Positions 6,116 through 46,904 of a stretch of DNA of 46,904 bases are shown one piece after another. The position numbers were made by a program, and so were the translations under genes. The notes beneath the pieces are model-generated. The model did no database searches. It had not been told where the DNA came from and saw nothing but the letters and a program-made list of their open reading frames with translations. This DNA comes from Deltaproteobacteria bacterium (GTDB lineage: Bacteria; JAMCPX01), in the NCBI GenBank assembly GCA_023382265.1, contig JAMCPX010000021.1, positions 1 through 46,904 on the forward strand. The letters are read 5' to 3'. Positions within the stretch are counted from its first letter, which is position 1. The number at the start of each line of letters is the position of its first letter.

Positions 6116-8116
6116 TTATTTTAATTCTTTAATAGCACTGTCAAACAAGCCTTCTGTAACGGACATATTATGCAGCCCGTTTGCCTTTTCTATAAATAAT
6201 AATTTGGTAGAAGCATCATCATATCTATGTTTCATCTGTTTGTATTTATTACTCTTTTTGTCAAGTCCTTCAAGTGTTATTTTTGTATTTTTTAATAATA
6301 ATTCTACAGTCTCATACTTTTTAGCATATACATTGTTCCATTTATCAAGCAGCCCGCCATACATAGGCACGTGACATCCTACACATCTGCCTCTTACCGT
6401 TTGGTATACGTGGCCTGTTTTTATTGTACCGTGACAGTCATGACAGCTTACAGAACCCGCCATAACATTCGGTGTATGCGGGATATCCTTAAACGGAACA
6501 CGGCCGTTAAAAAGTTTGGCAGTATCGCTATGGCATAATACGCAATTTGAAGTAGCACTATTCTGATGATGACATTGGGCGCATGTATCTACCTTTATGT
6601 TCATAGCCATTGCATGATCTGCAGGATGACAGGCATCACAGCCTAAGCCCATGCTTATATGAAAATCGTGCGGGAAATTAACACCAAGGGGATCAAACCT
6701 TATTGTTTCTGGCATTCCGAGAGTATTATGGCATAATACGGCACACGAAGCCCCAACACTCTTTAACGATGCAGGAACATTTGCCTCAGCTTCTGGACCT
6801 CCAACAATCTTTGCTGCTTTATTGGCAAGTTTTAGAGAATTCATTAATATCTGCTGTGTGTATCTTATGTTATGTGAAGGGTAGGCGTTTGAAACAAAAC
6901 GGGTATTAAATTCTGCATCGTCGATAAGACGCTGAGCCTGATCTTTCTTAACTTTACTTGCACCCGAATTCCTTATTATAATTTTTGCCTTGTTTATGGT
7001 ATTACTGGCATAAACATTCATACTGTTGCCAACCGATATCCAATTATACATAAGTCTATCATAAGGCTTACCGTGGCATTCCACGCATGCCATTGCTGTC
7101 TGCTGTAGATTTTCTTTTCTTGCAAGTCTTATGTTATGCAGTGATGAAGATTTCTTAGGATGACATCCCTCACAGCTTACCTGTGTAGAAAACATTGCAT
7201 CCGGTGTATTCGGTGTATCCTTTGCGCCTATTCCCATATACATTTGCCTTTGATAGTTGTGTTTTGATTGATGGCAGTCTTTACAATTACTTTCGAGGGC
7301 CTGAATCATGTGTATCTCTCCATGAACCATTGGTTTATGGCAGTTATTGCAGGTTAAATGCTCTTTCGTAACATGTGTATAATGTACGAACATGGGGTTA
7401 TCGTACTTATACGATCTATCTTCATGACATTTATGGCATCTGGCCTTGGGAACTTTACCGGTGCCCTTTATGACGTCCAAATGACATTGGTTGCACTGCA
7501 TACCTTTCGTTAAATATGAACTATGATTGAACTCCATTCCATTAAAATCAACGGTTTTTGTAGGGCTACCATGGCACGAAGGGCATCCTGTAACAGCCTC
7601 CCCTCTCGGTGCACCAATAAAATGACAGGATATACATGCATCTTCATCCGTAGTTTTCTGCTCTGTACCATGCGTTACATGCGGATGGCAGGTCTCACAG
7701 CTTAACAGCATTTCTCTTACATCCTTACCAACATGGAGTGAGTGATTAAAGTATACCATATTTTTGTAAAATATGGGTTTGTTTAATTCTTCCATTGTAT
7801 GGCACTTTATGCATATCTTATCAGAAACAACCGCCCTCGGGTGTGGATTATAAAATCCTGTAGCAATTTCAAATGACATTCTCGTAATGTAATTAAACCC
7901 AAGTTTATGACACGTTACGCATGAGATATTTTTATGAACAGACGACTTCCATTCGTTGATATATGGCTGCATAATGTGGCAGCTTTTACAGGTATTTGTA
8001 GAACCGGACAGTATGATAAACGTGGTATTGCTTAGAAGCCACACGAATAATAAAATAGCTATTACTGCCATAGATATTTTGCGTCTTATTATAAAGAGCT
8101 TTACATAATCAAACAT
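6116..8116 (-). CDS. Membrane-anchored 18-heme c-type cytochrome with NapC/NirT-like start
   Basis: Periplasmic electron-transfer protein of 666 residues. The sequence shows 17 CxxCH heme-binding motifs plus one CX3CH (CAVLCH, in the region translated from about 6740), so 18 predicted covalent hemes. A short basic N-terminus is followed by one membrane segment (about 15-37) and then at once by CKSCH and CVTCH, as in NapC/NirT/NrfH-type quinol-oxidising anchors. The C-terminal 80 residues lack hemes and are helical and lysine-rich. It is the last gene of the five-gene operon, 3 bp after the b-type cytochrome gene, so it may take electrons from the b/c pairs upstream. No catalytic subunit motif (nitrite, sulfite or hydroxylamine) is recognisable. 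The exact electron acceptor is unknown. Confidence 0.9.
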   Translation of the reverse strand: MFDYVKLFIIRRKISMAVIAILLFVWLLSNTTFIILSGSTNTCKSCHIMQPYINEWKSSVHKNISCVTCHKLGFNYITRMSFEIATGFYNPHPRAVVSDKICIKCHTMEELNKPIFYKNMVYFNHSLHVGKDVREMLLSCETCHPHVTHGTEQKTTDEDACISCHFIGAPRGEAVTGCPSCHGSPTKTVDFNGMEFNHSSYLTKGMQCNQCHLDVIKGTGKVPKARCHKCHEDRSYKYDNPMFVHYTHVTKEHLTCNNCHKPMVHGEIHMIQALESNCKDCHQSKHNYQRQMYMGIGAKDTPNTPDAMFSTQVSCEGCHPKKSSSLHNIRLARKENLQQTAMACVECHGKPYDRLMYNWISVGNSMNVYASNTINKAKIIIRNSGASKVKKDQAQRLIDDAEFNTRFVSNAYPSHNIRYTQQILMNSLKLANKAAKIVGGPEAEANVPASLKSVGASCAVLCHNTLGMPETIRFDPLGVNFPHDFHISMGLGCDACHPADHAMAMNIKVDTCAQCHHQNSATSNCVLCHSDTAKLFNGRVPFKDIPHTPNVMAGSVSCHDCHGTIKTGHVYQTVRGRCVGCHVPMYGGLLDKWNNVYAKKYETVELLLKNTKITLEGLDKKSNKYKQMKHRYDDASTKLLFIEKANGLHNMSVTEGLFDSAIKELK

Positions 8117-8119
8117 GAT

Positions 8120-9037
8120 CTATTCCTTCTCTACTTGTTTTGATATCCTATCGTATTCCAGCGGATGCTCATCGATCATCTGTTCTCTGGTCAACTTTCC
8201 ATGCCACCACACAAGTGACCCGGGAAACCTGCTTGGATTAAAATGAACATTATAGAAATGCCAGATAACAATTGTTAGTGTGGCCAGTAGCGCCTCATCA
8301 CTATGGGCTTCTCTTGCAATATCATATACATATTTTGGCAGATACATCATGGTTAAATTATGAAACCACATGATAAGCCCTGAACCAACCATTACAATTC
8401 CACCCCAGTAGACCGCCCAGTAGTCAAACTTTTCAATATAGCTGAATCTATCAAATTTTGGTTTTTCTTTTGATAACCCAAAAAAATACTTTACCATCCG
8501 AACAACATCTTTGCCGTCTTTTACCCTCGGCAAAAGCGCAAACCAATCCCTTCTGCCCTCTTTGTTAAACATACTATATAATGTATGGAACAAATAAAAA
8601 GCGATTAAAAGCACTGCACCTACCCTATGGATTATGCCTTGAACCGCTATCCCGCCCAATATGTGCATTATGATTTTGGACGCTACAGCATTTGGGAATT
8701 TTATAGGTAAACCTGTTATAATCAAAATAATGACACTTATGAAAAGCATTATATGCTGAATCCTGAAATAAATGTTAAACCGTTGAAATGTATCCTCTTT
8801 CCATTGTTCTTTCTTGTTCGTTTTTTCCCTGGCTTTTTGCTCTTTTTTTATGATCCTGTATATCTTTTTCAGTTTCGTATCTAATAATGGCTCAAGGTCA
8901 TTCTCCGCAACTGCTTTTATAAGCCTCTTTGCCATATTAACGAGTTCTTGATCATCTTTTATTCCAAGTGATTCTATCAAATGATTTTCAAGTTCTTCTA
9001 TAAAGTGTTCTTTAGAAGTTTTATATCTATCTGCCAC
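8120..9037 (-). CDS. b-type cytochrome membrane subunit with cytosolic N-terminal extension
   Basis: Integral membrane diheme-type cytochrome b, related to the gamma subunits of formate dehydrogenase and Ni/Fe-hydrogenase. The 305 residues begin with about 90 charged, helical residues absent from the paralogue at 10113-10781. Four to five membrane segments then carry histidines in suitable places: RIQHIMLF, IIHRVGAV, FYLFHTLY, MWFHNLTM and WHFYNVHFNP. The start is GTG at 9037, with GGGAG 7 bases upstream, overlapping the end of the 9-heme gene region (2-bp gap). It probably passes electrons between the quinone pool and the neighbouring multiheme proteins. The paralogous pair arrangement suggests duplication of a b/c module. 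Confidence 0.88.
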   Translation of the reverse strand: MADRYKTSKEHFIEELENHLIESLGIKDDQELVNMAKRLIKAVAENDLEPLLDTKLKKIYRIIKKEQKAREKTNKKEQWKEDTFQRFNIYFRIQHIMLFISVIILIITGLPIKFPNAVASKIIMHILGGIAVQGIIHRVGAVLLIAFYLFHTLYSMFNKEGRRDWFALLPRVKDGKDVVRMVKYFFGLSKEKPKFDRFSYIEKFDYWAVYWGGIVMVGSGLIMWFHNLTMMYLPKYVYDIAREAHSDEALLATLTIVIWHFYNVHFNPSRFPGSLVWWHGKLTREQMIDEHPLEYDRISKQVEKE

Positions 9038-9039
9038 AA

Positions 9040-10110
9040 TTATTCTCCCGATTTATTTTTCTTACCCAATTCTCCTGCTTTATATCTGCGATACAGATCA
9101 AATAATATATGTATGAAAAGCACTGTTAAAGTAGATATTGTAAGGATCTCAAAAAACAATCCTATATAGTATATTATTCCCGAGCTTTTACTTTTATAAT
9201 TTACGTGTATTTTACCCTTGGTGAAGTCGATGTTCGCATTTGGATGACATCTACCGCAGGTCTTTACAAGATTTGCCTTATTTATTGATGATCTCGGATC
9301 AGATGCAGGCAGGATAAGATGCGCCCGATGACAGCTTGCGCAATTAGCAACCCTCACAGACCCGAATTCATCTGCTACCCCATGATAACTTTCTTTGTAT
9401 GTGCTTACACGTCCGCCTGGGATATTATATTTTTTTATGAGTTCTTTATTTTCATGGCATTTTGAACATATGTTAAGCACATGCGTAGGATAGATATTCG
9501 ATAATGGATCGTACTTTGCCAATATTAAATGCTTTCCATGACATGTTGTACATGTAGGAGCTGACTTGATGTTCTTATCAAGTACAGCAACACCATGAAT
9601 ACTTTCTACATATCTTTTATATTGTGTTTTATGACATTTGCCGCACGTGTATGCAACATCCCGGTGATTTACCGTAGAAAGCGGTGAATTAACTTTCTGA
9701 ACATTATGACCACCATGGCAATTCTGACATTTTGGAGCAGAAGGATCACCTTTATTGAGAAGCTCTCCGTGTATTGATTGAAAATAATCGTTTGCAGGAA
9801 TTGCATTATCAGGATTATCTTTATAATGGCATCTAAAACAGTTTACAGTACCCGGCTTCTTAAGATGGGGTATTTCCATAACATCCGCATGACAGTCTGT
9901 ACAATGCAGTTTATTATGGATAGAGTTCTCAAGCTCTTCCTTATTCACATACAGTTCCAGAACCTTCCCCCCGGGCATAACCTTTTTAAACCCCGGCCTG
10001 CCGTGGCACAAAAGACATTTCTTATACAACTTTACCTGAGCGGAGGCGTTTGAGGGAATAAAAGATAGTATGATAAAAAGAGACGTTAACAATTTAAGTG
10101 CTTTCATCAT
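9040..10110 (-). CDS. 9-heme c-type cytochrome with C-terminal membrane anchor
   Basis: Exported multiheme cytochrome. It has a signal peptide (hydrophobic core, cleavage near NASA/QV), then nine CxxCH motifs in order: CLLCH, CTDCH, CFRCH, CQNCH, CGKCH, CTTCH, CSKCH, CASCH and CGRCH. A single C-terminal membrane helix (about 315-337) and a basic cytosolic tail follow. I prefer the ATG at 10110 (AAGGG 6 bases upstream). A GTG at 10113 that overlaps the previous stop, and an ATG at 10107, are alternatives. It is paralogous to the 11-heme protein upstream: the segment SINKANLVKTCGRCHPNA is shared in both just before the anchor. It sits between two b-type cytochrome genes and probably docks with one of them. 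Confidence 0.9.
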   Translation of the reverse strand: MMKALKLLTSLFIILSFIPSNASAQVKLYKKCLLCHGRPGFKKVMPGGKVLELYVNKEELENSIHNKLHCTDCHADVMEIPHLKKPGTVNCFRCHYKDNPDNAIPANDYFQSIHGELLNKGDPSAPKCQNCHGGHNVQKVNSPLSTVNHRDVAYTCGKCHKTQYKRYVESIHGVAVLDKNIKSAPTCTTCHGKHLILAKYDPLSNIYPTHVLNICSKCHENKELIKKYNIPGGRVSTYKESYHGVADEFGSVRVANCASCHRAHLILPASDPRSSINKANLVKTCGRCHPNANIDFTKGKIHVNYKSKSSGIIYYIGLFFEILTISTLTVLFIHILFDLYRRYKAGELGKKNKSGE

Positions 10111-10112
10111 CA

Positions 10113-10781
10113 CTATCCCTTAATAATTTTCTCATATTCGAGTTTGTGATCCTGCTTTAATCGTTCTATAGATATCTTGCCATCAAGCCATGTCTTACTC
10201 ATGGGGAAATCCTCTGGATTAAGGTGTACATTGTAAAGATGAAAAAGGAATAAAACTATAAATATTAAAACCCCATCCCATCCATGCACAAGTAGGGTTA
10301 GGTCTATTACCCATTTGGGTAATACCGCCATAGACAAATTTACAAACCACAGGATCATCCCTGTAAAAATCATAATAATTGTACCGAAAACGACACCCCA
10401 GTACTGAAATTTTTGAAAATAATTATACTTATCAAATTCCGGCTGCTTTTTAGAAAGCCCAAGATTGAATGCAAGCTTCTGAAAAAAATCCTTGACGTCT
10501 TTCCACCGCGGTTTTATGTTCATCAGTTCTCTATGTCCCTCATCTGTAAATACCACCCAGTATGCATGATATACAACAAGCAGCATAAGAATTACTGCAA
10601 AGGTTCTATGAATCAATCCTCTTACCCAAATACCGCCTTCTAACCTTATCAGCCATTTAGAAAAAAGGTTATTGTGAAATTTAAGTACAATACCTGTAAG
10701 CGATAAAATTATCATAGAAACTAAGAGAATAATGTGTTGTATTCGTTGATTTTTAGAGAGCCGCTCTGCTGTGCTATTCAT
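10113..10781 (-). CDS. b-type cytochrome membrane subunit
   Basis: Membrane cytochrome b of 222 residues with about four helices and conserved histidines (RIQHIILL, LIHRTFAV, VVYHAYW and FLFHLYNVHLNP), probably binding two b hemes. The C-terminal NVHLNPEDFPMSKTWLDG closely parallels NVHFNPSRFPGSLVWWHG in the neighbour at 8120-9037, so the two are paralogues. AAGGAG lies 5-6 bases before its ATG. It overlaps the end of the 11-heme gene by 8 bp, which implies translational coupling, and the 9-heme gene follows immediately. Inferred role: exchange of electrons between menaquinol and the tail-anchored multiheme subunit. Confidence 0.88.
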   Translation of the reverse strand: MNSTAERLSKNQRIQHIILLVSMIILSLTGIVLKFHNNLFSKWLIRLEGGIWVRGLIHRTFAVILMLLVVYHAYWVVFTDEGHRELMNIKPRWKDVKDFFQKLAFNLGLSKKQPEFDKYNYFQKFQYWGVVFGTIIMIFTGMILWFVNLSMAVLPKWVIDLTLLVHGWDGVLIFIVLFLFHLYNVHLNPEDFPMSKTWLDGKISIERLKQDHKLEYEKIIKG

Positions 10782-12000
10782 GCTTTCTCCTTATGATTTT
10801 TTTTCTACGGATGTTTATAAGATCAAATATTACATACACTACAAAGATTGTGATTAAAATACCTATAAACCATGTATAAAATATCCTTACATAGTACGGT
10901 CCCTTCTCTCCATGCTTATTGACAATTACGTGGATTTTACCTTTAACAAAATCAGCACTTGCATTTGGATGACATCTTCCGCATGTCTTTACAAGATTTG
11001 CCTTATTTATTGATGATCTCGGATCACTTGACGGCAGTATTTCATGGGTTCCATGACAGCTTGCACAATTTGCTGCTTCAAGATTCCCGAATTTAAGTGC
11101 TATTCCATGAAAACTATTTTCATAAGTAGATAACCTTCCAAGCGGTAAATTATACTTTTTTGCCATTGTTACCGAGCTATGGCATTTTGAGCATGTTGTT
11201 GGTATGTTTTTAGCGTAAACACTCGACTTAGGATTCGTTGGTTTTAGGATTTTGTGCTCTCCATGACAATCAGTACAAACAGGTGCAGCCATTATGTGCT
11301 TATCCTTTACAGCGTGCCAGTGAATGCTTTGCACATATTTTGCATATATTGGTTCATGGCATTTTGAGCATGTTACCGGAATATTAAGTTTGTTTATTTT
11401 TGAGTTTTGATCAGTAGAGGGTTCTATATCATGCGAGCCGTGACAATCGGTACAAACGGCTGCGACAGAAATACCTTTTTTAAGAAAGGCGACGCCATGA
11501 ACACTTTCCTTATAAGAGTTTACCCATTCATAACCCGATTTGGTTGTCTCTTCATCAACGGGTTGTTCTTTGTGACAATTAGCGCAGATGTTAATCATGG
11601 CTTTTTTCCCCGCAGTTGATTCAAGATATGGCTTGCCTTTAATATCATGGGAGCCATGACAGGTAACGCAACCGGGTCCGTTGGAGACTTTACTATGAAT
11701 ACTTTTAAAAAATGACTCTGCCTGCTGTTTATGACATCTTGCACAATTTACCTTTGCTGTCGGATTTTTGTGAGGATACCCTTTGATCTCAGTATGACAC
11801 TGTATACAGCTTATTCCGGTATGTGCAGATCCTGTTATTTTATCTGGGGCTATGTACATACCTTTTTGATCTACATGAGGGAATTGGCTATAAAAATCTT
11901 TTTTTCCATGACAGCTCATACAATCAGTATTGTACGCGCCATAAGCACTGCTATAAATTAACAGTATAGCTCCTGCCAATAGTATTACTTTTTTTTTCAT
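10774..12000 (-). CDS. 11-heme c-type cytochrome with C-terminal membrane anchor
   Basis: First gene of the cytochrome operon, 408 residues. A signal peptide (MKKKVILLAGAILLIYSSAYG) precedes eleven CxxCH motifs: CMSCH, CIQCH, CARCH, CVTCH, CANCH, CTDCH, CSKCH, CTDCH, CSKCH, CASCH and CGRCH. A membrane helix near 375-397 and a strongly basic tail (RRKKIIRRKHE) close the protein. Internal similarity between blocks (CTDCHG followed by CSKCH, twice) suggests growth by heme-module duplication. The family resembles multiheme subunits of bc-type menaquinol complexes in metal-reducing bacteria, but that assignment is inference. GAGG lies 7-8 bases upstream of the ATG. Confidence 0.9.
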   Translation of the reverse strand: MKKKVILLAGAILLIYSSAYGAYNTDCMSCHGKKDFYSQFPHVDQKGMYIAPDKITGSAHTGISCIQCHTEIKGYPHKNPTAKVNCARCHKQQAESFFKSIHSKVSNGPGCVTCHGSHDIKGKPYLESTAGKKAMINICANCHKEQPVDEETTKSGYEWVNSYKESVHGVAFLKKGISVAAVCTDCHGSHDIEPSTDQNSKINKLNIPVTCSKCHEPIYAKYVQSIHWHAVKDKHIMAAPVCTDCHGEHKILKPTNPKSSVYAKNIPTTCSKCHSSVTMAKKYNLPLGRLSTYENSFHGIALKFGNLEAANCASCHGTHEILPSSDPRSSINKANLVKTCGRCHPNASADFVKGKIHVIVNKHGEKGPYYVRIFYTWFIGILITIFVVYVIFDLINIRRKKIIRRKHE

Positions 12001-32585: not shown

Positions 32586-33920
32586 TTATAGCTTAATAAG
32601 CTTCCATTTACCCTTCTTTATGCCGATCAACATAAAGACACTTAACAGGAATATATAAGTATCAGCGGCAAGCCACAGCCCTATTATATTAAGCTTCAGA
32701 AGCACACCGAGAATGTATGATAAAGGGACAAACAATAGCCAGTGTAATGTTACATCAACAGCCATGACATACTTTGTGTATCCTGCGCCAAACAAGGACT
32801 GACTGCCGATTAAACCAACGGCTTCAAAGATTAATGCAGAGCTATAGATGAACAAACCTTTTGAACCTGCTATAATAACTAAATTGGAATCAGTGAATAA
32901 TCCCATTATAGTAGAGGGGAATGCCATGAATATCAGTGCTATTAAAGCCATGATCAGTACGCCGAGCTTTATTGAATCTATTGCATATCTCTCTGCTTCA
33001 TCGGGGTTATTCGCACCAAGACTCTGTCCAACCATTGTGGCAGCAGCAGTACCAAATCCGAGTAAAGGTAAAAATGTCATAGATGCAACCTGTGTTAAAA
33101 TAGCAGTTGCGGCCTGTGTTACAACGTCTATCTTTCCCGATATAACAATAAATGCCTCAAAACCAAGTGTTGTAAGTAATGCAGCTATGGCTGCGGGATA
33201 GCTTACTCTTATAATCTCTTTCAAAACGGACCTGTCTGTTCTCCAGGATGCATATATCTTAAATATCCTGTAAGGCTTTTTTATGCTGTAAAAAACGATT
33301 GCAGCAACACCTACAAACGAACTTATTGTTGCCGATATGCCGGCACCTTCAACACCGAGTCTCGGGAATCCAAAGTGTCCAAGTATGAGCCCGTATGACA
33401 GTACAATATTCACAACATTCATAATAATAGAGACGTACATGTAAACCCATGTTCTGCCCAGTGCATCAAAAAAGGCTTTATAAACAACTATCACAAGAAA
33501 CGGCAAAAGGCCGATAAACCGGTATCTTATGAATTTTGCCCCTTCAATCGCGACCAATCTGTTATGCGTTAGAAGTATAAATAAAGGCTTTGCTATAGTA
33601 TATCCTATAAAACCTATCATGGTGCCGAGAACAACTGCCATAATAATACCAGCAAAAAGCACCCTGCCCGCTTTTTCATACTGCTTTTCTGCAAATCTAC
33701 GGGTTACAAGGCTCAATATGCCTACCGATATCGCATTCAATGCACCGCCAAATACCCATAACGTAATTATCCCAAGCCCGAGCGCTGCAAGCCCTATTTT
33801 TGCATCCGCTCCGAGCCTGCCAACCATAGCAACATCAAATAAGTTGATAAACGTCTGGGTTAGCATACCAATCATAACCGGCGTTGCCAGTCTTATAATC
33901 GTTGGGTAAGAACGTTTCAC
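32586..33920 (-). CDS. MATE family efflux transporter
   Basis: Polytopic inner-membrane drug/sodium or proton antiporter, 444 residues with about 12 membrane helices. The N-terminal PVMIGMLTQTFINLFDVAMVGRLG is the MATE signature (NorM/DinF type). A second half repeat begins near SYPAAIAALLTTLGFEAFIVISGK and includes GFGTAAATMVGQSLGANNPDEAE. Its start overlaps the stop of the 946-residue protein gene by 4 bp (ATGA-type), so they are co-transcribed. The substrate cannot be inferred. Confidence 0.92.
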   Translation of the reverse strand: MKRSYPTIIRLATPVMIGMLTQTFINLFDVAMVGRLGADAKIGLAALGLGIITLWVFGGALNAISVGILSLVTRRFAEKQYEKAGRVLFAGIIMAVVLGTMIGFIGYTIAKPLFILLTHNRLVAIEGAKFIRYRFIGLLPFLVIVVYKAFFDALGRTWVYMYVSIIMNVVNIVLSYGLILGHFGFPRLGVEGAGISATISSFVGVAAIVFYSIKKPYRIFKIYASWRTDRSVLKEIIRVSYPAAIAALLTTLGFEAFIVISGKIDVVTQAATAILTQVASMTFLPLLGFGTAAATMVGQSLGANNPDEAERYAIDSIKLGVLIMALIALIFMAFPSTIMGLFTDSNLVIIAGSKGLFIYSSALIFEAVGLIGSQSLFGAGYTKYVMAVDVTLHWLLFVPLSYILGVLLKLNIIGLWLAADTYIFLLSVFMLIGIKKGKWKLIKL

Positions 33921-36757
33921 TGTATAGGTGCCCCAATGAAGAAATAGAAAGAAGATGAAGGGAATGCGTTCAATGCATAAGCATAGCCGAAAGAAAATCT
34001 AACATTATAAAGATATGCAATGTACGTATCAATATGCAGTTCCATACCATAAGATGTAATAGTTTTTATAGTGTTCGTACCTATATCCGCATAAGGTGCA
34101 AGAGAGACCTTATCGAAATAAACCGGCAATGTGTTGATACCTCTATCAATAATTGCAACAGGGTATCTGTATTCAATGGTCAATGAAAGGGCTTTGTCCC
34201 CCGTTAATATGCCCGCCGGATAACCCCTTATCGGTACTGCTGAGAGGTTTTGATTGGCAAGCAGTGACGGCAGACCACCTATAGAAAGCAGCTGGCTGCC
34301 TTTTGAAGGACCTGCAACAAAATCATAAATGCCTCTAAAATATATCACATGGTTTGCGCCTAAACCAGGTAGGTATGCACGCAATTGCGAATAAAACTGC
34401 GTAAGTTCAAGATCGCTTCCGAGAGCAGATAGATCCCTTTCCAATGACGTATTAAAATAAACCCCGTTTTCTCTGCTTATGGATGTATCAAATACGTACG
34501 TTGTATCGATAGCATAGGTTGCTGTAAACCCGCTTAACTTACCAGTGAACGGCGCATTTGAGACGTAAGCAGGGAGATGCGTTAATGAACTTATAAGCGC
34601 GTAGTCATAGCCGATACCAATAGATTGGCGGTATCTGAAATTGTTTATAGGATATGATATGTCAAGTTCTGCATTGCTCTTTTGCAGAACGTATGAATGT
34701 GTTGTATTGGATGCCGGCTCTGTGTACGTTTCAGCAATGTACGGTATAATGCCTCCATTAATCCCGATTTGAGGCGGGTACGCGTCATTTGTATAAGAAG
34801 CAAAAAAACCGGGGCTTGATTTACCGTTTTGATAACCCGTGTAATCGGCAAGCAGATAATAGTTATGATAACCAAGCAGATCGGAGCCCTGTGTGTATAC
34901 ACCAACCGAATAGGCGTCAGGATCAAGTGTTACTGCCGGCAGCCACCATGTCGGTCTGAGTGTATCCCATGGTGAATACTTTGTAATAGCTGCTTTTGTA
35001 TGTTTGCAAGATTTAACCTGCCGGACAAGAAATTCTCTCTGTCTATTCAAAGTCCTGAATGTGGATGGAGAAAAAGGCATTTCATACACGTTAAAGCCCG
35101 TTTTATCATACTGGACAAAGGCAAGCATTTTATCATCAGGGGATACCTGCGATTCATAAGCACCGCCGATCACATTTGTTATCATGTAAATGGTTTTATC
35201 CGTAATAGAATAAGCATACAGGTTTGCTATACCCGTTCTATCCGATGAAAACATTACAAATCTATTATCCCTTGACCACGCAGGGAACAGGTTGAGATGC
35301 GTATCAGCTACAACCGTAGTAAGGAATTCGCCTTGCTTATTCAGGATCTTTATATCCGTTTCTCCATCATTATATTTGACCGTAACAGCTATATCATTAC
35401 CATCATAAGACCATCTTGGGTCAAGGAATTGGGCTGATCCCTTAATCATTGCGATTGTTTTTACAGAGCCGGGATCCGTAAGACGGTAGATCATGAGCGA
35501 AGATACTGTTGAGGTGTTTGAGACAAAAACAACCTTACTGCAGTTGTATGATACATCAGGACCCCTTACTCTTAAACCATGGGTGAGCTGTTTTGTACGA
35601 TTTGTTTTCAGGTTTAGTTCATACAGATCGCTGTAAAGATAAAAGTTTTTGAAATAGTCTTCCTGCGAGAAGAATAGCCTTTGATTACATGCTGAATTTG
35701 TATGATTGCTGTTCCTTAAGGTTACCCGTTTTGTTTTTCCTGTTTTTAAGGATTTGTAAAAAATAGCCATATTGGTCATGCCGTTATAAGATGTGTAAAA
35801 TATGCCCTTGCCCTTGTTATCCCATACAGGACTTCTTGTGTCTGCACCAATAAATGTGAGCTGCTTTGACGGCGTCGGTCCTGAAAACAAAAATGATATA
35901 TACTCAAGCATCGCCTGCTTTCTTAAGTGAACCTGCCATTCGCGCCATAATGTAATAAAGGATTCATCTTTGAATGCGTGCTTTGAAGATGTCTCAATAA
36001 AAAAGGGCAGGTACGTGTATTCTTTTGAATACTCTGCAAGTGCTGCTGCCCCATACCGTTCTCCGATATACTGAAGGAATTTACCGCCGTATAGATAAGG
36101 GTACTCTCCATAAGGCCATTTGCTCGGGATCCCGTCACCCCTATCTATAGGAGGCAACGTATTTGTAAGCGCCTGCATTCTTAAAATTGTATTGTAATAG
36201 CTGCCGTTATCCCTGCCGGCCTGAGTGAGTGTAGATTCATTGTAAACGGCATAACCTTCAATGATCCAATCGGGTTCAAGAAAATTTGTAAACAATACTC
36301 TTCCAAAGATATCATTCAAAAATCCAAAAAATCCCCTTGACTGATCGAGATGCAGTATGTGTGTGTACTCATGGACAAAGATCATCTTTAGCCAGTAATC
36401 ATAATTGATGATGCTTGTATACGCGTCAGGAGGTACTGCGTATATGATTATGTGATCATAATAGTACGGCGTGGTTTCACCATTTGTAGAGTCGGTAGAA
36501 TTTGTAAGCAGGATATAAGTCTTTCTTTGGGGTACCCAGTTCATACGAGAGGTCATTTTTCTATAATAAGATTCTGCAATATTCATAAGCTTTTGAGCAA
36601 TATCCAGCTCCGATGGAGTGAATATGATTGAAAAATGTTTAGACTGTATTGTTTTCCATGTTTGGTCTGGTGGGGCGTATCCAAACCCATACGAGACTGC
36701 TATGCTGGTCAAAATTAACACGGGAACAAACAATAAAAGACATACTTTATATTTCAT
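33917..36757 (-). CDS. Exported metallopeptidase-like / TolB propeller / barrel protein
   Basis: Large exported protein of 946 residues. A signal peptide (1 to about 23) precedes a peptidase-MA-like domain with HEYTH (129-133) and a downstream glutamate in WIIEGYA (Glu167), the HExxH...E zinc pattern of gluzincins. A middle region (about 300-590) has TolB/PD40-type blades such as SPVWDNKGKGIFYTS, DPRWSYDGNDIAV, FPAWSRDNRFVMFSS and SQVSPDDKMLAFV. The last 300 residues are aromatic, alternating and barrel-like, ending in FYFFIGAPIQ, and carry the GGLPSLLANQ and IRGYP segments typical of Omp85-like barrels. The architecture fits an outer-membrane anchored protease or assembly factor. It is coupled to the MATE gene by a 4-bp overlap. 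Confidence 0.8.
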   Translation of the reverse strand: MKYKVCLLLFVPVLILTSIAVSYGFGYAPPDQTWKTIQSKHFSIIFTPSELDIAQKLMNIAESYYRKMTSRMNWVPQRKTYILLTNSTDSTNGETTPYYYDHIIIYAVPPDAYTSIINYDYWLKMIFVHEYTHILHLDQSRGFFGFLNDIFGRVLFTNFLEPDWIIEGYAVYNESTLTQAGRDNGSYYNTILRMQALTNTLPPIDRGDGIPSKWPYGEYPYLYGGKFLQYIGERYGAAALAEYSKEYTYLPFFIETSSKHAFKDESFITLWREWQVHLRKQAMLEYISFLFSGPTPSKQLTFIGADTRSPVWDNKGKGIFYTSYNGMTNMAIFYKSLKTGKTKRVTLRNSNHTNSACNQRLFFSQEDYFKNFYLYSDLYELNLKTNRTKQLTHGLRVRGPDVSYNCSKVVFVSNTSTVSSLMIYRLTDPGSVKTIAMIKGSAQFLDPRWSYDGNDIAVTVKYNDGETDIKILNKQGEFLTTVVADTHLNLFPAWSRDNRFVMFSSDRTGIANLYAYSITDKTIYMITNVIGGAYESQVSPDDKMLAFVQYDKTGFNVYEMPFSPSTFRTLNRQREFLVRQVKSCKHTKAAITKYSPWDTLRPTWWLPAVTLDPDAYSVGVYTQGSDLLGYHNYYLLADYTGYQNGKSSPGFFASYTNDAYPPQIGINGGIIPYIAETYTEPASNTTHSYVLQKSNAELDISYPINNFRYRQSIGIGYDYALISSLTHLPAYVSNAPFTGKLSGFTATYAIDTTYVFDTSISRENGVYFNTSLERDLSALGSDLELTQFYSQLRAYLPGLGANHVIYFRGIYDFVAGPSKGSQLLSIGGLPSLLANQNLSAVPIRGYPAGILTGDKALSLTIEYRYPVAIIDRGINTLPVYFDKVSLAPYADIGTNTIKTITSYGMELHIDTYIAYLYNVRFSFGYAYALNAFPSSSFYFFIGAPIQ

Positions 36758-36948: not shown

Positions 36949-36976
36949 TTGACAGTTTAATAAAATGTTTAATAAT
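36949..36976 (+). promoter_or_regulatory. Strong-looking sigma70 promoter for the small peptide gene
   Basis: Perfect -35 TTGACA at 36949-36954, 16-base spacer, and AATAAT (five of six) at 36971-36976. Predicted transcription start is near 36983, downstream of the ATG at 36965. This argues that the frame's first ATG is not used and that translation starts at 37016. Confidence 0.6.
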
Positions 36977-37015: not shown

Positions 37016-37222
37016 ATGAAAAGGATAGATATGCATGGCAATAAAACAGATAGGAAAGATGAAGTTTTAAAGATTTCAACAGATGTTTATAACAATGATA
37101 ATGTGCCTGTCCAAAAAAAAAGATTTATAGAACCGGAGCTGCGCGAGTATCCGTCTTTAACAGAGATCACTCTATTATCGGCACCAGGGACTTCAGGAAC
37201 ATTTTTTAAAACATTTAAATAG
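37016..37222 (+). CDS. Small peptide with lasso-type RiPP leader signature
   Basis: Protein of 68 residues starting at ATG 37016 (AGGG 8 bases upstream; a promoter predicted at 36949-36976 excludes the earlier ATG). The N-terminal half is charged and probably disordered. The segment FIEPELREYPSLTEIT lines up with the leader pattern YxxPxLxxxGxxxxLT bound by the RRE/B1 domain of lasso-peptide systems: Phe for Tyr, Pro for Gly and Ile for Leu. The 16 residues after it (LLSAPGTSGTFFKTFK) would be the core. They contain no Asp or Glu, so a classical lasso macrolactam cannot form. No maturation enzyme, cyclase or exporter lies within the window. I read it as an orphan RiPP-like precursor; chance resemblance remains possible. 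Confidence 0.5.
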   Translation: MKRIDMHGNKTDRKDEVLKISTDVYNNDNVPVQKKRFIEPELREYPSLTEITLLSAPGTSGTFFKTFK

Positions 37223-43480: not shown

Positions 43481-45334
43481 CTAAAAGTTTCCGCCGCCCG
43501 GGAATTGAGGGCCTATGTACGGGAAGTATTGAGGTCCTGTTGTTATACCCTTTAATTCGGTTACATTACCACTGCCATAATTCGCAACCCAGACATTGCC
43601 GGATGCGTCTATCGCTATACCCATGGGATTGGAGCCTACGGCATACGTTCCTTTTGTAGTGCCTGTAGGGCTTAATTCGGTTACATTTTTACTATTACTA
43701 TTCACAACCCAGACATTGCCGGATGCGTCTATCGCTATACCCATGGGTGAGGTACCTACATTATACGTTCCTAATGTGACGCCCGTAGGGCTTAATGCGG
43801 TTACAGTATTATAAACTACATTCGCAACCCAGAGATTGCCCGATGGATCTATCGCTATGCCATAGTGATAATTGTCTGAATTGCCTACATTATACGTTTT
43901 TAATGTAGTACCGGTAAAGCTTAATTCAGTTACAGTATTACTACCTTTATTCGCAACCCAGACATCGCCGGATGCGTCAATCGCTATGACATCGGGATTG
44001 CCACCGACGGTAACCGTGGTAATGGTAGTGCCCGTAGGGCTTAATTCGGTTACATTATTACTATTACTATTCACAACCCAGACATTGCCGGATGCGTCTA
44101 TGGCTATACCCATGGGATAGGCACCGACGGTAACAGTGGTCATGGTAGTGCCTGTAGGGCTTAATTCGGTTACAGTACTATCATACCAATTCGTAACCCA
44201 GACATCGCCGGATGCGTCTATCGCTATGCCTTCGGGATTGAAGCCTACATGATACGTTCCTTTTGTAGCGCCCGTAGGGCTTAATTCGGTTACAGTACTA
44301 TCAGCGTAATTCGTAACCCAGACATTGCCGGATGCGTCTATCGCTATACTATATGGGTATAATCCTACAGCATACGTAGACGTGACGAGCTTACTCCCTT
44401 TTACCTGGTTTGAATATCCACTCTCTGCGGCATTGTTCTGTGCGCTAACAACAAAGTAATAAGGTGTGCTGTTTGTTATACCGGTTACCGTATAGGCTGT
44501 TGTTGTGGTTGTTCCTACTGCCATATAAGGTCCTCCGGAAACCGCTGATTCATAAATAGTGTAGCTTGTAGCTCCTGTTGAAGCATTCCATGCAAGCAGA
44601 ATGCTTGATATCCTTGATAATGCTGTGAGGTCTGTAGGTGTTGAAGGAATGACGTCTAAGGTGCTTACACCTATTGTGCCGGTTACTTCGTATCCATAAT
44701 TATCACTTACAGTAACCGTTATATACCCACCCGTATTATAGGTTGACGGTGCTATTACAGTGGCTGTTGTGCCATAACCTGTTATTGCCCATCCTGAAGA
44801 AGCCTCCCATATGTAATGCGGTATATTCCCTTGTGCATCATAGGTATTGACGACTGCTGTTATAACTCCGTTTGGTGATACCGGATTTGGTAACGCTGTT
44901 ATACTATTTATCACCGGTGCACTATCACCCTGCGTGCTTAAGGCAATTACCCCAATTGCATACATTCCGTTAATGTCCGACACCTCTATTGTCGCCGTGC
45001 CGGTCATGCCGTAGCCAGACGGTGCTATTATGGTTGCTGTCTGACTATTTACACTGGATGGTGACACACTCCACAGGCTTGTTGCCGTCCACGTGTAGGT
45101 AAGGGCAAGGTTCTGAGCGCTCTGTGCAATGACAGTTGTTGTAACAGGACTTCCCGGTATTGCAGGTAATCCCGTAGCATTTAAGCTCTGAATTATCGGC
45201 ATGGTTGGACCGGTTATACCCTGTGCACCTTGCGGACCTGTTGCTCCTGTTTTACCGTTCGAACCTGAACATCCTGCGATAAGCAGCAGGACAAACAATG
45301 AAAAGATAAAAAATGCTTTGATGGTGACTTTCAT
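43481..45334 (-). CDS. Surface lipoprotein with collagen-like start, Ig/FN3 modules and 7-bladed propeller
   Basis: Exported lipoprotein of 617 residues. The signal peptide ends with LLLIAGC, a strong lipobox. A short collagen-like G-x-y run (GATGPQGAQGITGP) follows, then two Ig-like domains with TATIIAPSGY and TATVIAPSTY, a fibronectin-III module (IPSTPTDLTALSRISSILLAW), and seven propeller blades each carrying IAIDASGNVWV or near variants. The blades match the NHL/virginiamycin-B-lyase-like family. In DNA the blades are seven tandem units, six about 120 bp apart and one spaced 129 bp. AAGGAGGT lies 4-5 bases before ATG 45334, and a strong terminator follows. It may be a surface adhesin or a ligand-binding protein; no enzyme residues are evident. 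Confidence 0.82.
   Translation of the reverse strand: MKVTIKAFFIFSLFVLLLIAGCSGSNGKTGATGPQGAQGITGPTMPIIQSLNATGLPAIPGSPVTTTVIAQSAQNLALTYTWTATSLWSVSPSSVNSQTATIIAPSGYGMTGTATIEVSDINGMYAIGVIALSTQGDSAPVINSITALPNPVSPNGVITAVVNTYDAQGNIPHYIWEASSGWAITGYGTTATVIAPSTYNTGGYITVTVSDNYGYEVTGTIGVSTLDVIPSTPTDLTALSRISSILLAWNASTGATSYTIYESAVSGGPYMAVGTTTTTAYTVTGITNSTPYYFVVSAQNNAAESGYSNQVKGSKLVTSTYAVGLYPYSIAIDASGNVWVTNYADSTVTELSPTGATKGTYHVGFNPEGIAIDASGDVWVTNWYDSTVTELSPTGTTMTTVTVGAYPMGIAIDASGNVWVVNSNSNNVTELSPTGTTITTVTVGGNPDVIAIDASGDVWVANKGSNTVTELSFTGTTLKTYNVGNSDNYHYGIAIDPSGNLWVANVVYNTVTALSPTGVTLGTYNVGTSPMGIAIDASGNVWVVNSNSKNVTELSPTGTTKGTYAVGSNPMGIAIDASGNVWVANYGSGNVTELKGITTGPQYFPYIGPQFPGGGNF
43561..44410. repeat. Tandem 120-bp coding repeats (propeller blades)
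   Basis: Seven near-identical units begin at 43561, 43681, 43801, 43930, 44050, 44170 and 44290. Spacing is 120 bp except for one 129-bp step. The third and fourth units differ most. The near-identity of many blades at the DNA level suggests recent expansion or gene conversion. It is inside the lipoprotein gene, not a CRISPR. Confidence 0.85.
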
Positions 45335-45552
45335 ACAAACCTCCTTCTTAGTGTTACTGTTATCACCTTTATTCTTTGTTTGTAAAGAAAAACGAAGGCG
45401 ACACGGCGGCGTGGAGATCCTCGAGGCTTACCGGTAGCACCCCGTTCAAGAAACGTCCCTTATTTGAACATGCCTCGCTGCCCGGTGTTTCAGAAGAAAA
45501 ACGGCAATGGTAACCTTCGCATGATCTCAAGATCGCCCCTTCAAATCGATTT

Positions 45553-45574
45553 ACCCGAAAAATGCAATAAGGAA
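45553..45574 (+). repeat. Dispersed ACCC-GAAAAATGC-AATA repeat copy
   Basis: acccgaaaaatgcaata followed by aggaa matches 20 of 22 positions with the copy at 4412. Its first 13 bases are repeated in inverted orientation at 45760-45772. Confidence 0.5.
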
Positions 45575-45759
45575 GTTTTCTTATTCGCTCAATCCCGCGA
45601 TCCACCTGATATCTATACGTTTCCTTATAGAAACGAGCTTTTAGTCCTCTGTATGTTTATATGCTATTACCCGGTATGGTTTCCTCATCGGATATTCGAA
45701 GAATACCTTTATTTGACGCGGCCTTTTCGCTCATTACATAAACTTCCTCATTTTCAAAC

Positions 45760-45772
45760 GCATTTTTCGGGT
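45760..45772 (-). repeat. Inverted 13-bp partner of the 45553 repeat
   Basis: Reverse complement of acccgaaaaatgc. On its own strand it is followed after 11 unmatched bases by aggaagttt, which also follows the 45553 copy. The pair therefore looks like two diverged element copies in opposite orientation. Confidence 0.4.
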
Positions 45773-45882
45773 TTATGGAATCTCTATTGTCAGGACGGCT
45801 GCCGTTGACTGTTTCTCGGTTCACTATCTTGAATAAGTCAAATAGTTAAAAAATCAAAACACTTTTTTAAATGTTAGACAGA

Positions 45883-46904
45883 TTAATTGTGCCATGTACT
45901 AAAATATATTGTACCGTCGGGAGCTACTACGGGTGCTGTATTTGCAGTACCAACAACCGAAAACTGCCATTTTAATGTACCATTGGAATTAAAGGCATAT
46001 AGTTTGTTAGCTAATACCATGTAGATAGTTCCATCAGCACTTACAACGGACGCACAGCCTTCGAACTGTGTCGTAGAGCTCCAGTTGAGACCACCGTAGG
46101 AGTTAATCGCATAGAGGATATTTTTATTCGGTACGGCATCGTATAAATCAACATAGATCGTCCCATCAGTTCCGGTTGCCGGAGGAGAACCAAAAACGAT
46201 ATAAGCTCCAAATTCATGAGTCCAATAAAATGAACCATACGGATTAAAAGCATAAAGGGTGTTGGCAACATTACCACTTAATATGATATAGACAGTCCCA
46301 TTCGGAGCGATGATCGGGGGCGATGCGAAACCAATATAGTCTGTACCATTGAATATCGTAGAAGAAAATTGCAGTACACCGACTGATGAAAACGCATAAA
46401 GCATGTTATTGCCAGCCTCAATGTAAATAGTATCATTGATGCCGACAGCCGGTGCTGAGCTGAATGAATCGGTTGAATCGCTCCATTGAAGTGCACCAGT
46501 CGGACTGAGTGCGTAAAGGCTACCATTAACTGTTAAGAAGATAGTGCCATTGCTTCCTACAACGGGAGATGATAAAATAAAACCGTTTGTTACATAGGTC
46601 CATTGAAGTGCACCAGCTGAATTAAAATCACAAAGAGTTCCGGAACCATTGCAGGCGGCGTAGATTGTACCGTCAGTTCCTATTACAGGTGATGGACTGT
46701 TTTCACTTATATTTGATAATGGTACTTCCCAGACAACCGAACCGGTTGGGCTCATTGCATAAAGAAATGAGCTTTCTCGATTCCAAGTTCGCAAAGAAGA
46801 AGAGAAATAGATAGTGCCATCGAGACCAATGGCCGGTGAAGAGGGAGACATGTTTTTCGTAGTGTAATTCCATTTCAGTGTACCATTCGGGTTGATTGCA
46901 TAAA
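45883..46904 (-). CDS. PQQ-type beta-propeller protein (5' end outside window)
   Basis: The minus-strand frame is open to the end of the window. Upstream of the ATG at 46851 it reads YAINPNGTLKWNYTTKN, which is clearly more of the same repeat, so the real start lies beyond 46904. At least eight blades of about 38-45 residues carry VIGTDGTIY or variants (PAIGLDGTIY, PVVGSNGTIF, PIIAPNGTVY, PVVAPDGTIYF) and LYAINSYG-type turns. The repeats resemble PQQ-dependent dehydrogenase/BamB-like propellers. No catalytic residues are evident, so it is probably an exported structural or binding protein. It sits beside the 7-bladed propeller lipoprotein on the same strand. Confidence 0.85.
   Translation of the reverse strand, partial: YAINPNGTLKWNYTTKNMSPSSPAIGLDGTIYFSSSLRTWNRESSFLYAMSPTGSVVWEVPLSNISENSPSPVIGTDGTIYAACNGSGTLCDFNSAGALQWTYVTNGFILSSPVVGSNGTIFLTVNGSLYALSPTGALQWSDSTDSFSSAPAVGINDTIYIEAGNNMLYAFSSVGVLQFSSTIFNGTDYIGFASPPIIAPNGTVYIILSGNVANTLYAFNPYGSFYWTHEFGAYIVFGSPPATGTDGTIYVDLYDAVPNKNILYAINSYGGLNWSSTTQFEGCASVVSADGTIYMVLANKLYAFNSNGTLKWQFSVVGTANTAPVVAPDGTIYFSTWHN

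Follow-up and report, generated by a model that had tools for sequence, protein, structure and literature searches.

A conserved family of short peptides with a lasso-type leader and a candidate RiPP-like pathway without a lasso cyclase

The DNA analyzed (the window) is a stretch of 46,904 nucleotides; its own genome is termed G000, and the family of genomes to which it belongs is termed f1. At 37016–37222 on the forward strand we confirmed an intact ORF of 68 amino acids with the C-terminal end ...KKRFIEPELREYPSLTEITLLSAPGTSGTFFKTFK. An AAAAGGA ribosome-binding site lies five bases 5′ of the second Met codon (37031) and the homologues begin at that column; hence, the second Met is probably the better start, giving a peptide of 63 residues. 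The features of the locus are:

33917..36757, minus strand: divergent neighbour, a 946-aa secreted protein with an HEYTH motif and WD40-like (PD40) repeats (ORF and domain search)
36949..36976, plus strand: candidate sigma-70-like promoter, TTGACA-16-AATAAT, 11 of 12 matches (consensus scan only; shuffles give similar numbers of weaker matches)
37031..37222, plus strand: peptide gene in its 63-aa form from Met6 (ORF, homologue alignment start, ribosome-binding site and purifying selection)
37031..37123, plus strand: variable Lys-rich N-terminal extension before the leader module (poor conservation in the alignment)
37124..37171, plus strand: lasso-type leader recognition module FIEPELREYPSLTEIT, with F-17, P-14, L-12 and T-2 (invariant residues and the known lasso register)
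37175..37219, plus strand: predicted core LSAPGTSGTFFKTFK, without Asp or Glu (alignment; cleavage site placed by the lasso register)
37220–37222, plus strand: TAG stop codon of the peptide gene

A hairpin 3′ of the peptide gene was not clearly better than shuffles, and a terminator is therefore not claimed. The original prediction held that no cyclase, protease or transporter is encoded nearby. A cyclase, a B2-type peptidase and a transporter are indeed absent, but the divergent neighbour carries a zinc-protease-like motif (HEYTHILHLD), a protease motif unrecognised by Pfam. Elsewhere in the window, a run of genes for multihaem cytochromes and a cytochrome b-like membrane protein occupies 6116–12000 (minus strand), and two large repeat beta-propeller-like proteins, one an NHL/virginiamycin-B-lyase-like lipoprotein and the other a second repeat protein, are encoded near the window end at 43481–46851 (minus strand).

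Lasso-peptide leaders carry a YxxPxL register at positions -17 to -12, with Thr, rarely Ile, at -2 (PMC10368454), and hydrophobic substitution of the Tyr has been reported for YxxP motifs (PMC12710340). A lasso-type leader had been read in the window peptide, and the register proved exact: FIEPELREYPSLTEIT places Phe at -17, Pro at -14, Leu at -12 and Thr at -2, with Pro for Gly at -8. By this register the predicted cut falls after Leu53 and leaves the 15-residue core LSAPGTSGTFFKTFK rather than the 16-residue tail that had been taken as the core. The motif [YF]xxPx[LIV]x9T occurred in 2 of the 310 short ORFs of the window, with 0.9 expected from shuffles, and alone is not statistically significant there; conservation across genomes, and not the leader motif by itself, raises the peptide above chance. 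Naming the peptide by profile, as a member of a curated precursor family, was rejected: the window copy matched no NCBIfam or Pfam profile at E up to 10, and two of its homologues matched no NCBIfam profile at E up to 0.1.

A protein search returned clear relatives in G001, G002, G005 and G006, all of the same family as the window's genome, and a profile search added G049 (four copies) and G060 (one copy), from another small phylum. The 10 homologous peptides, the window's included, lie in 7 of 386 genomes (profile search, E ≤ 1e-13), with no further match at E ≤ 0.001 among the 386; a database scan with a narrower alignment gave the four known relatives only. Weak matches in G062 (inside another gene) and G061 (without the motif) were rejected. 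The homologous genes are small (51–79 aa) and begin with a variable, Lys-rich extension; their conserved part is the C-terminal half, comprising the leader motif and the tail. The pattern F-x-E-P-x-[L/I]...Y...T stands in the lasso register (F -17, P -14, L/I -12, T -2) in all ten peptides, so that no homologue has lost the leader pattern on which the original prediction was built. Six residues (F, E, P, Y, T and one Gly) are invariant in the aligned modules, and the Leu after the leader Thr and both tail Phe residues are kept in nine of the ten. Asp and Glu are absent after the predicted cut throughout, core position 2 is always Ser or Thr, and core position 1 is Leu or Phe. When four f1 members (G000, G001, G002 and G005) were compared pairwise over 35–36 module codons, 14–20 synonymous vs. 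4–9 non-synonymous codon differences were counted, and this excess argues that the protein, tail included, is under purifying selection.

A whole-genome search for RRE, B2 and radical SAM proteins, part of the check proposed originally, found all of them at other loci of the same genomes. The set that recurs in trans consists of a lasso-type RRE (PqqD family), an HprK-type kinase, a radical SAM enzyme and a B2 peptidase. In G049, G060, G061 and G062 the four genes form one operon (RRE-HprK-rSAM-B2), and no precursor was seen beside it. In f1 they are split over two separate loci. The first, in the order RRE-TolB-B2-NTP_transf_5, includes a beta-propeller lipoprotein and a PF14907 nucleotidyltransferase; the second holds an orthologous HprK-type kinase and radical SAM enzyme in G000, G001, G002 and G004, and in G006 the HprK match adjoins the orthologous radical SAM gene. 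No other precursor was seen beside the RRE and B2 genes of the peptide genomes. In G003 the peptide, the RRE, B2 and the second kinase are all missing together. No peptide was detected in G004, G007, G008, G061 and G062, several of which are incomplete assemblies, though the enzymes are kept there.

The RRE matched PF05402 above the cut-off, and the nearest solved chains to the G000 RRE were all lasso B1/PqqD proteins (9x90, TbiB1 and TfuB1). The B2 peptidase exceeded the curated cut-off of NF033537 in G001, G002, G007, G049, G060 and G062 and fell just below it in G004 and G006, and its Cys and His are invariant in nine genomes. Across both phyla the radical SAM enzymes share 44–49% identity, vs. 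about 25% to control radical SAM proteins of the same genomes, and all lie far below every NCBIfam cut-off (best TIGR04317, 83–97 of 380 bits). Between phyla, the HprK-type kinases are 26–31% identical in alignments that extend up to the full length; the P-loop, His and Asp-Asp are retained. Transglut_core3 was over its cut-off in 88 of the 386 genomes, including all seven peptide genomes; because these are related, this is supportive but no independent test. Every genome encodes AsnB-like proteins (PF00733) that resemble housekeeping asparagine synthetases (the G001 copy starts with MCGICG); apart from a single neighbour in G001, which is not conserved, they are unlinked.

Outside the window there are eight homologous loci, and at each of them the peptide is encoded next to a large secreted lipoprotein, whose length ranges from 465 (truncated by a contig end) to 1071 residues. 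The lipoproteins beside the G049 and G060 peptides are paralogues of about 1050 residues, those in G001 and G002 have about 900–970 residues, and those in G005 and G006 are IPT plus NHL-repeat proteins. An N-terminal domain common to the f1 lipoproteins also occurs in lipoproteins with no peptide neighbour, and no motif-bearing precursor was found beside these further copies of the domain in the family. Comparison of the f1 and G049/G060 N-terminal domains by hhalign gave a probability of 41% (E 2.8e-4), so that homology between the domains of the two phyla is suggestive only; an AlphaFold2 model of the domain (pLDDT 35.6) was too poor to read a fold. The window copy has no lipoprotein neighbour of the partner kind, and its 946-aa divergent neighbour (33917–36757) shows no homology to the partner lipoproteins. 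Gene order suggests that the peptide product may be used together with the adjoining lipoprotein.

In G000, the RRE, HprK-type kinase and radical SAM ORFs are intact. The B2 gene has its catalytic Cys replaced by Arg (QHRWNR for QHCWNR) and a frameshift, several frameshifts and a stop interrupt the PF14907 nucleotidyltransferase gene, and the TolB-like beta-propeller lipoprotein gene has a partial deletion and a stop. These three pseudogenes cluster beside the intact RRE gene (G000:C54, L097, 7600–9530). In the sole G000 lipoprotein of the partner kind (C51), an in-frame TGA falls on a conserved Trp position, and part of the interior is deleted. The concentration of several lesions in a region that also holds intact genes favours, as far as the assembly can be judged, decay over random assembly error, and the G000 system is probably decaying or running without leader removal. 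The G000 peptide may then be a relic whose peptidase and partner have been lost and from which no matured product is made, a reading only just short of an even chance: the lesions in B2, the nucleotidyltransferase, the TolB-like gene and C51 all fit it, but the peptide ORF is intact like those of the RRE, HprK and radical SAM proteins, and the peptide has kept every invariant residue. Such a relic is confined to G000 and is compatible with the family-level explanation that follows.

We consider it reasonably probable that a RiPP-like pathway, assembled from lasso-peptide parts without the lasso cyclase, uses the peptide as its precursor. We propose that (i) the stand-alone RRE would bind the FxEPEL leader; (ii) the HprK-type kinase and the radical SAM enzyme would then modify the 12–16-residue, Ser/Thr/Gly-rich core, the invariant Ser/Thr at core position 2 being the most likely phosphorylation target; and (iii) the B2 cysteine peptidase would finally cut after Thr(-2)-Leu(-1). 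In f1, the PF14907 nucleotidyltransferase encoded beside B2 may attach another group to the phosphate, as in pseudomycoidin, where PsmK phosphorylates and PsmN, annotated as a nucleotidyltransferase, then adds a hexose (PMC9266682). The order of reactions is proposed by analogy with pseudomycoidin and with the Bradymonas bsf lasso pathway, in which B1, B2, a kinase and a nucleotidyltransferase serve a YxxPxL leader: there, B1 assists the kinase, which acts on a core Ser, the leader is removed by B2, and the genes include one for a nucleotidyltransferase (PMC10368454). With no cyclase and no acidic core residue the product should be linear, and it would probably work with, or as a ligand of, the adjoining large surface lipoprotein.

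We infer RRE binding, core modification, leader cleavage, export and what the product does, and the link between peptide and enzymes is drawn from motif, co-occurrence and conservation; the peptide genomes come from two lineages only, so that the co-occurrences are not independent. Other RRE, radical SAM and kinase cassettes of G049 could act on the G049 peptides instead. Also counting against the pathway are Leu or Phe at core position 1, vs. the Gly typical of lasso B2 substrates; the broken B2 of G000; and five genomes with enzymes and no detected peptide. The earlier suggestion that the peptide belongs to a new precursor class whose enzyme is encoded elsewhere is borne out by the RRE, kinase, radical SAM and B2 genes at other loci; the B2 of G000 is a pseudogene.

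The peptides have the YxxPxL-type leader register of lasso precursors (10 of 10, with Phe for Tyr), and B1 (RRE) and B2 are encoded in trans in the genome, B2 as a pseudogene in G000; no acidic core acceptor in the 10 peptides and no clustered cyclase C were found. RiPPs in general need an encoded precursor whose leader is recognised by an RRE and whose core is modified; a leader motif and a lasso-type RRE are present here, and their binding and the core modification are predicted. The system shares with the paeninodin, pseudomycoidin and bsf clusters a leader of the YxxPxL type, Thr at position -2 (Ile in bsf), a PqqD-type RRE (B1) that stands alone, a B2 cysteine peptidase, a kinase with a His-Lys-Asp-Asp motif and a nucleotidyltransferase (PMC10368454, PMC9266682). 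Unlike in those clusters, neither a cyclase C nor a transporter D is linked, the core has no Asp/Glu acceptor and no Gly at position 1, a radical SAM enzyme is added, and the precursors lie apart from the enzymes and beside lipoproteins. The SynChlorMet (Scm) and HPr-rel-A cassettes (NCBIfam) likewise combine a PqqD-like with an HprK-related protein, and Scm also includes radical SAM enzymes, but matches to them here are weak, all far below curated cut-offs, a B2 peptidase belongs to the set here, and the precursor differs. The GeoRSP and WgkB/WgkC radical SAM RiPP systems also pair a PqqD-family RRE with a radical SAM enzyme; in contrast to these, a lasso-type leader and B2 are present here, and the radical SAM enzyme lies far below the NCBIfam cut-offs. 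The enzyme combination is undescribed in the titles and abstracts of the open literature searched, and a description elsewhere is possible.

The lipoprotein gene beside the peptide at every locus outside the window would also suit a non-RiPP accessory protein of the lipoproteins, such as an assembly, targeting or regulatory factor, with a fortuitous resemblance to a leader. The chance expectation of 0.9 for the motif in the window's short ORFs and the persistence of the G000 peptide despite a broken B2 are in line with this reading, which we regard as unlikely: across two phyla all ten peptides hold to the lasso register with its Thr(-2), lasso-type RRE and B2 are present in the genomes with no other precursor beside them, and the peptide has no evident signal sequence with which to reach a lipoprotein. 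A lasso macrolactam requires Asp or Glu at core position 7–9. A standard lasso peptide was rejected, as the original prediction had it, because no predicted core of any homologue holds either residue, which excludes the lasso ring, and no cyclase is consistently linked; a true lasso peptide made by a distant asparagine-synthetase-like cyclase is accordingly most improbable, even though the leader, the RRE, B2, the kinase and the nucleotidyltransferase each belong to lasso pathways and AsnB-like proteins occur in every genome, for those genes are housekeeping-like and not consistently linked.

The RiPP-like precursor reading can be carried further. The lasso leader, RRE, B2, kinase and radical SAM enzyme, with no cyclase, may define an undescribed RiPP class in which scattered precursors yield short, linear and modified peptides, each dedicated as ligand or cofactor to a co-encoded giant surface lipoprotein; we put this forward tentatively, as somewhat likelier to fail than to stand. 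The original prediction as a whole is partly supported, and no more than partly because B2 is a pseudogene in G000, the lipoprotein pairing is invisible from the window and maturation itself is inferred. If the RiPP-like reading is true, parts of the lasso-peptide machinery have come to serve a non-lasso product, and such precursors would be easily missed by neighbourhood-based RiPP mining, since enzymes and precursors lie on separate loci; the lipoprotein pairing would speak for a role at the surface and not for an antibiotic. The conserved 51–79-aa genes provide a simple search handle for more members, and the gene sets of G002, G049 and G060 offer a route to the roles of B2 and the HprK-type kinase without a cyclase.

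Two further arrangements were seen in G049 and G062. At L069 (G049:C4, 1459–3195), the gene for another PqqD-like protein precedes those for a 58-aa peptide (YVQPEVITYTNDDVIKHLGPAQACSTTPC...) and a large secreted protein, a second such pairing of precursor and large protein. A PqqD-rSAM cassette, to which L066 adds an HprK-like kinase, lies at L066 (G049:C15) and L058 (G062:C355); the adjoining peptide has 67–69 residues, contains a KKWxSP motif, and its N-terminus is Tat-like (MKRREFLEKGKK).
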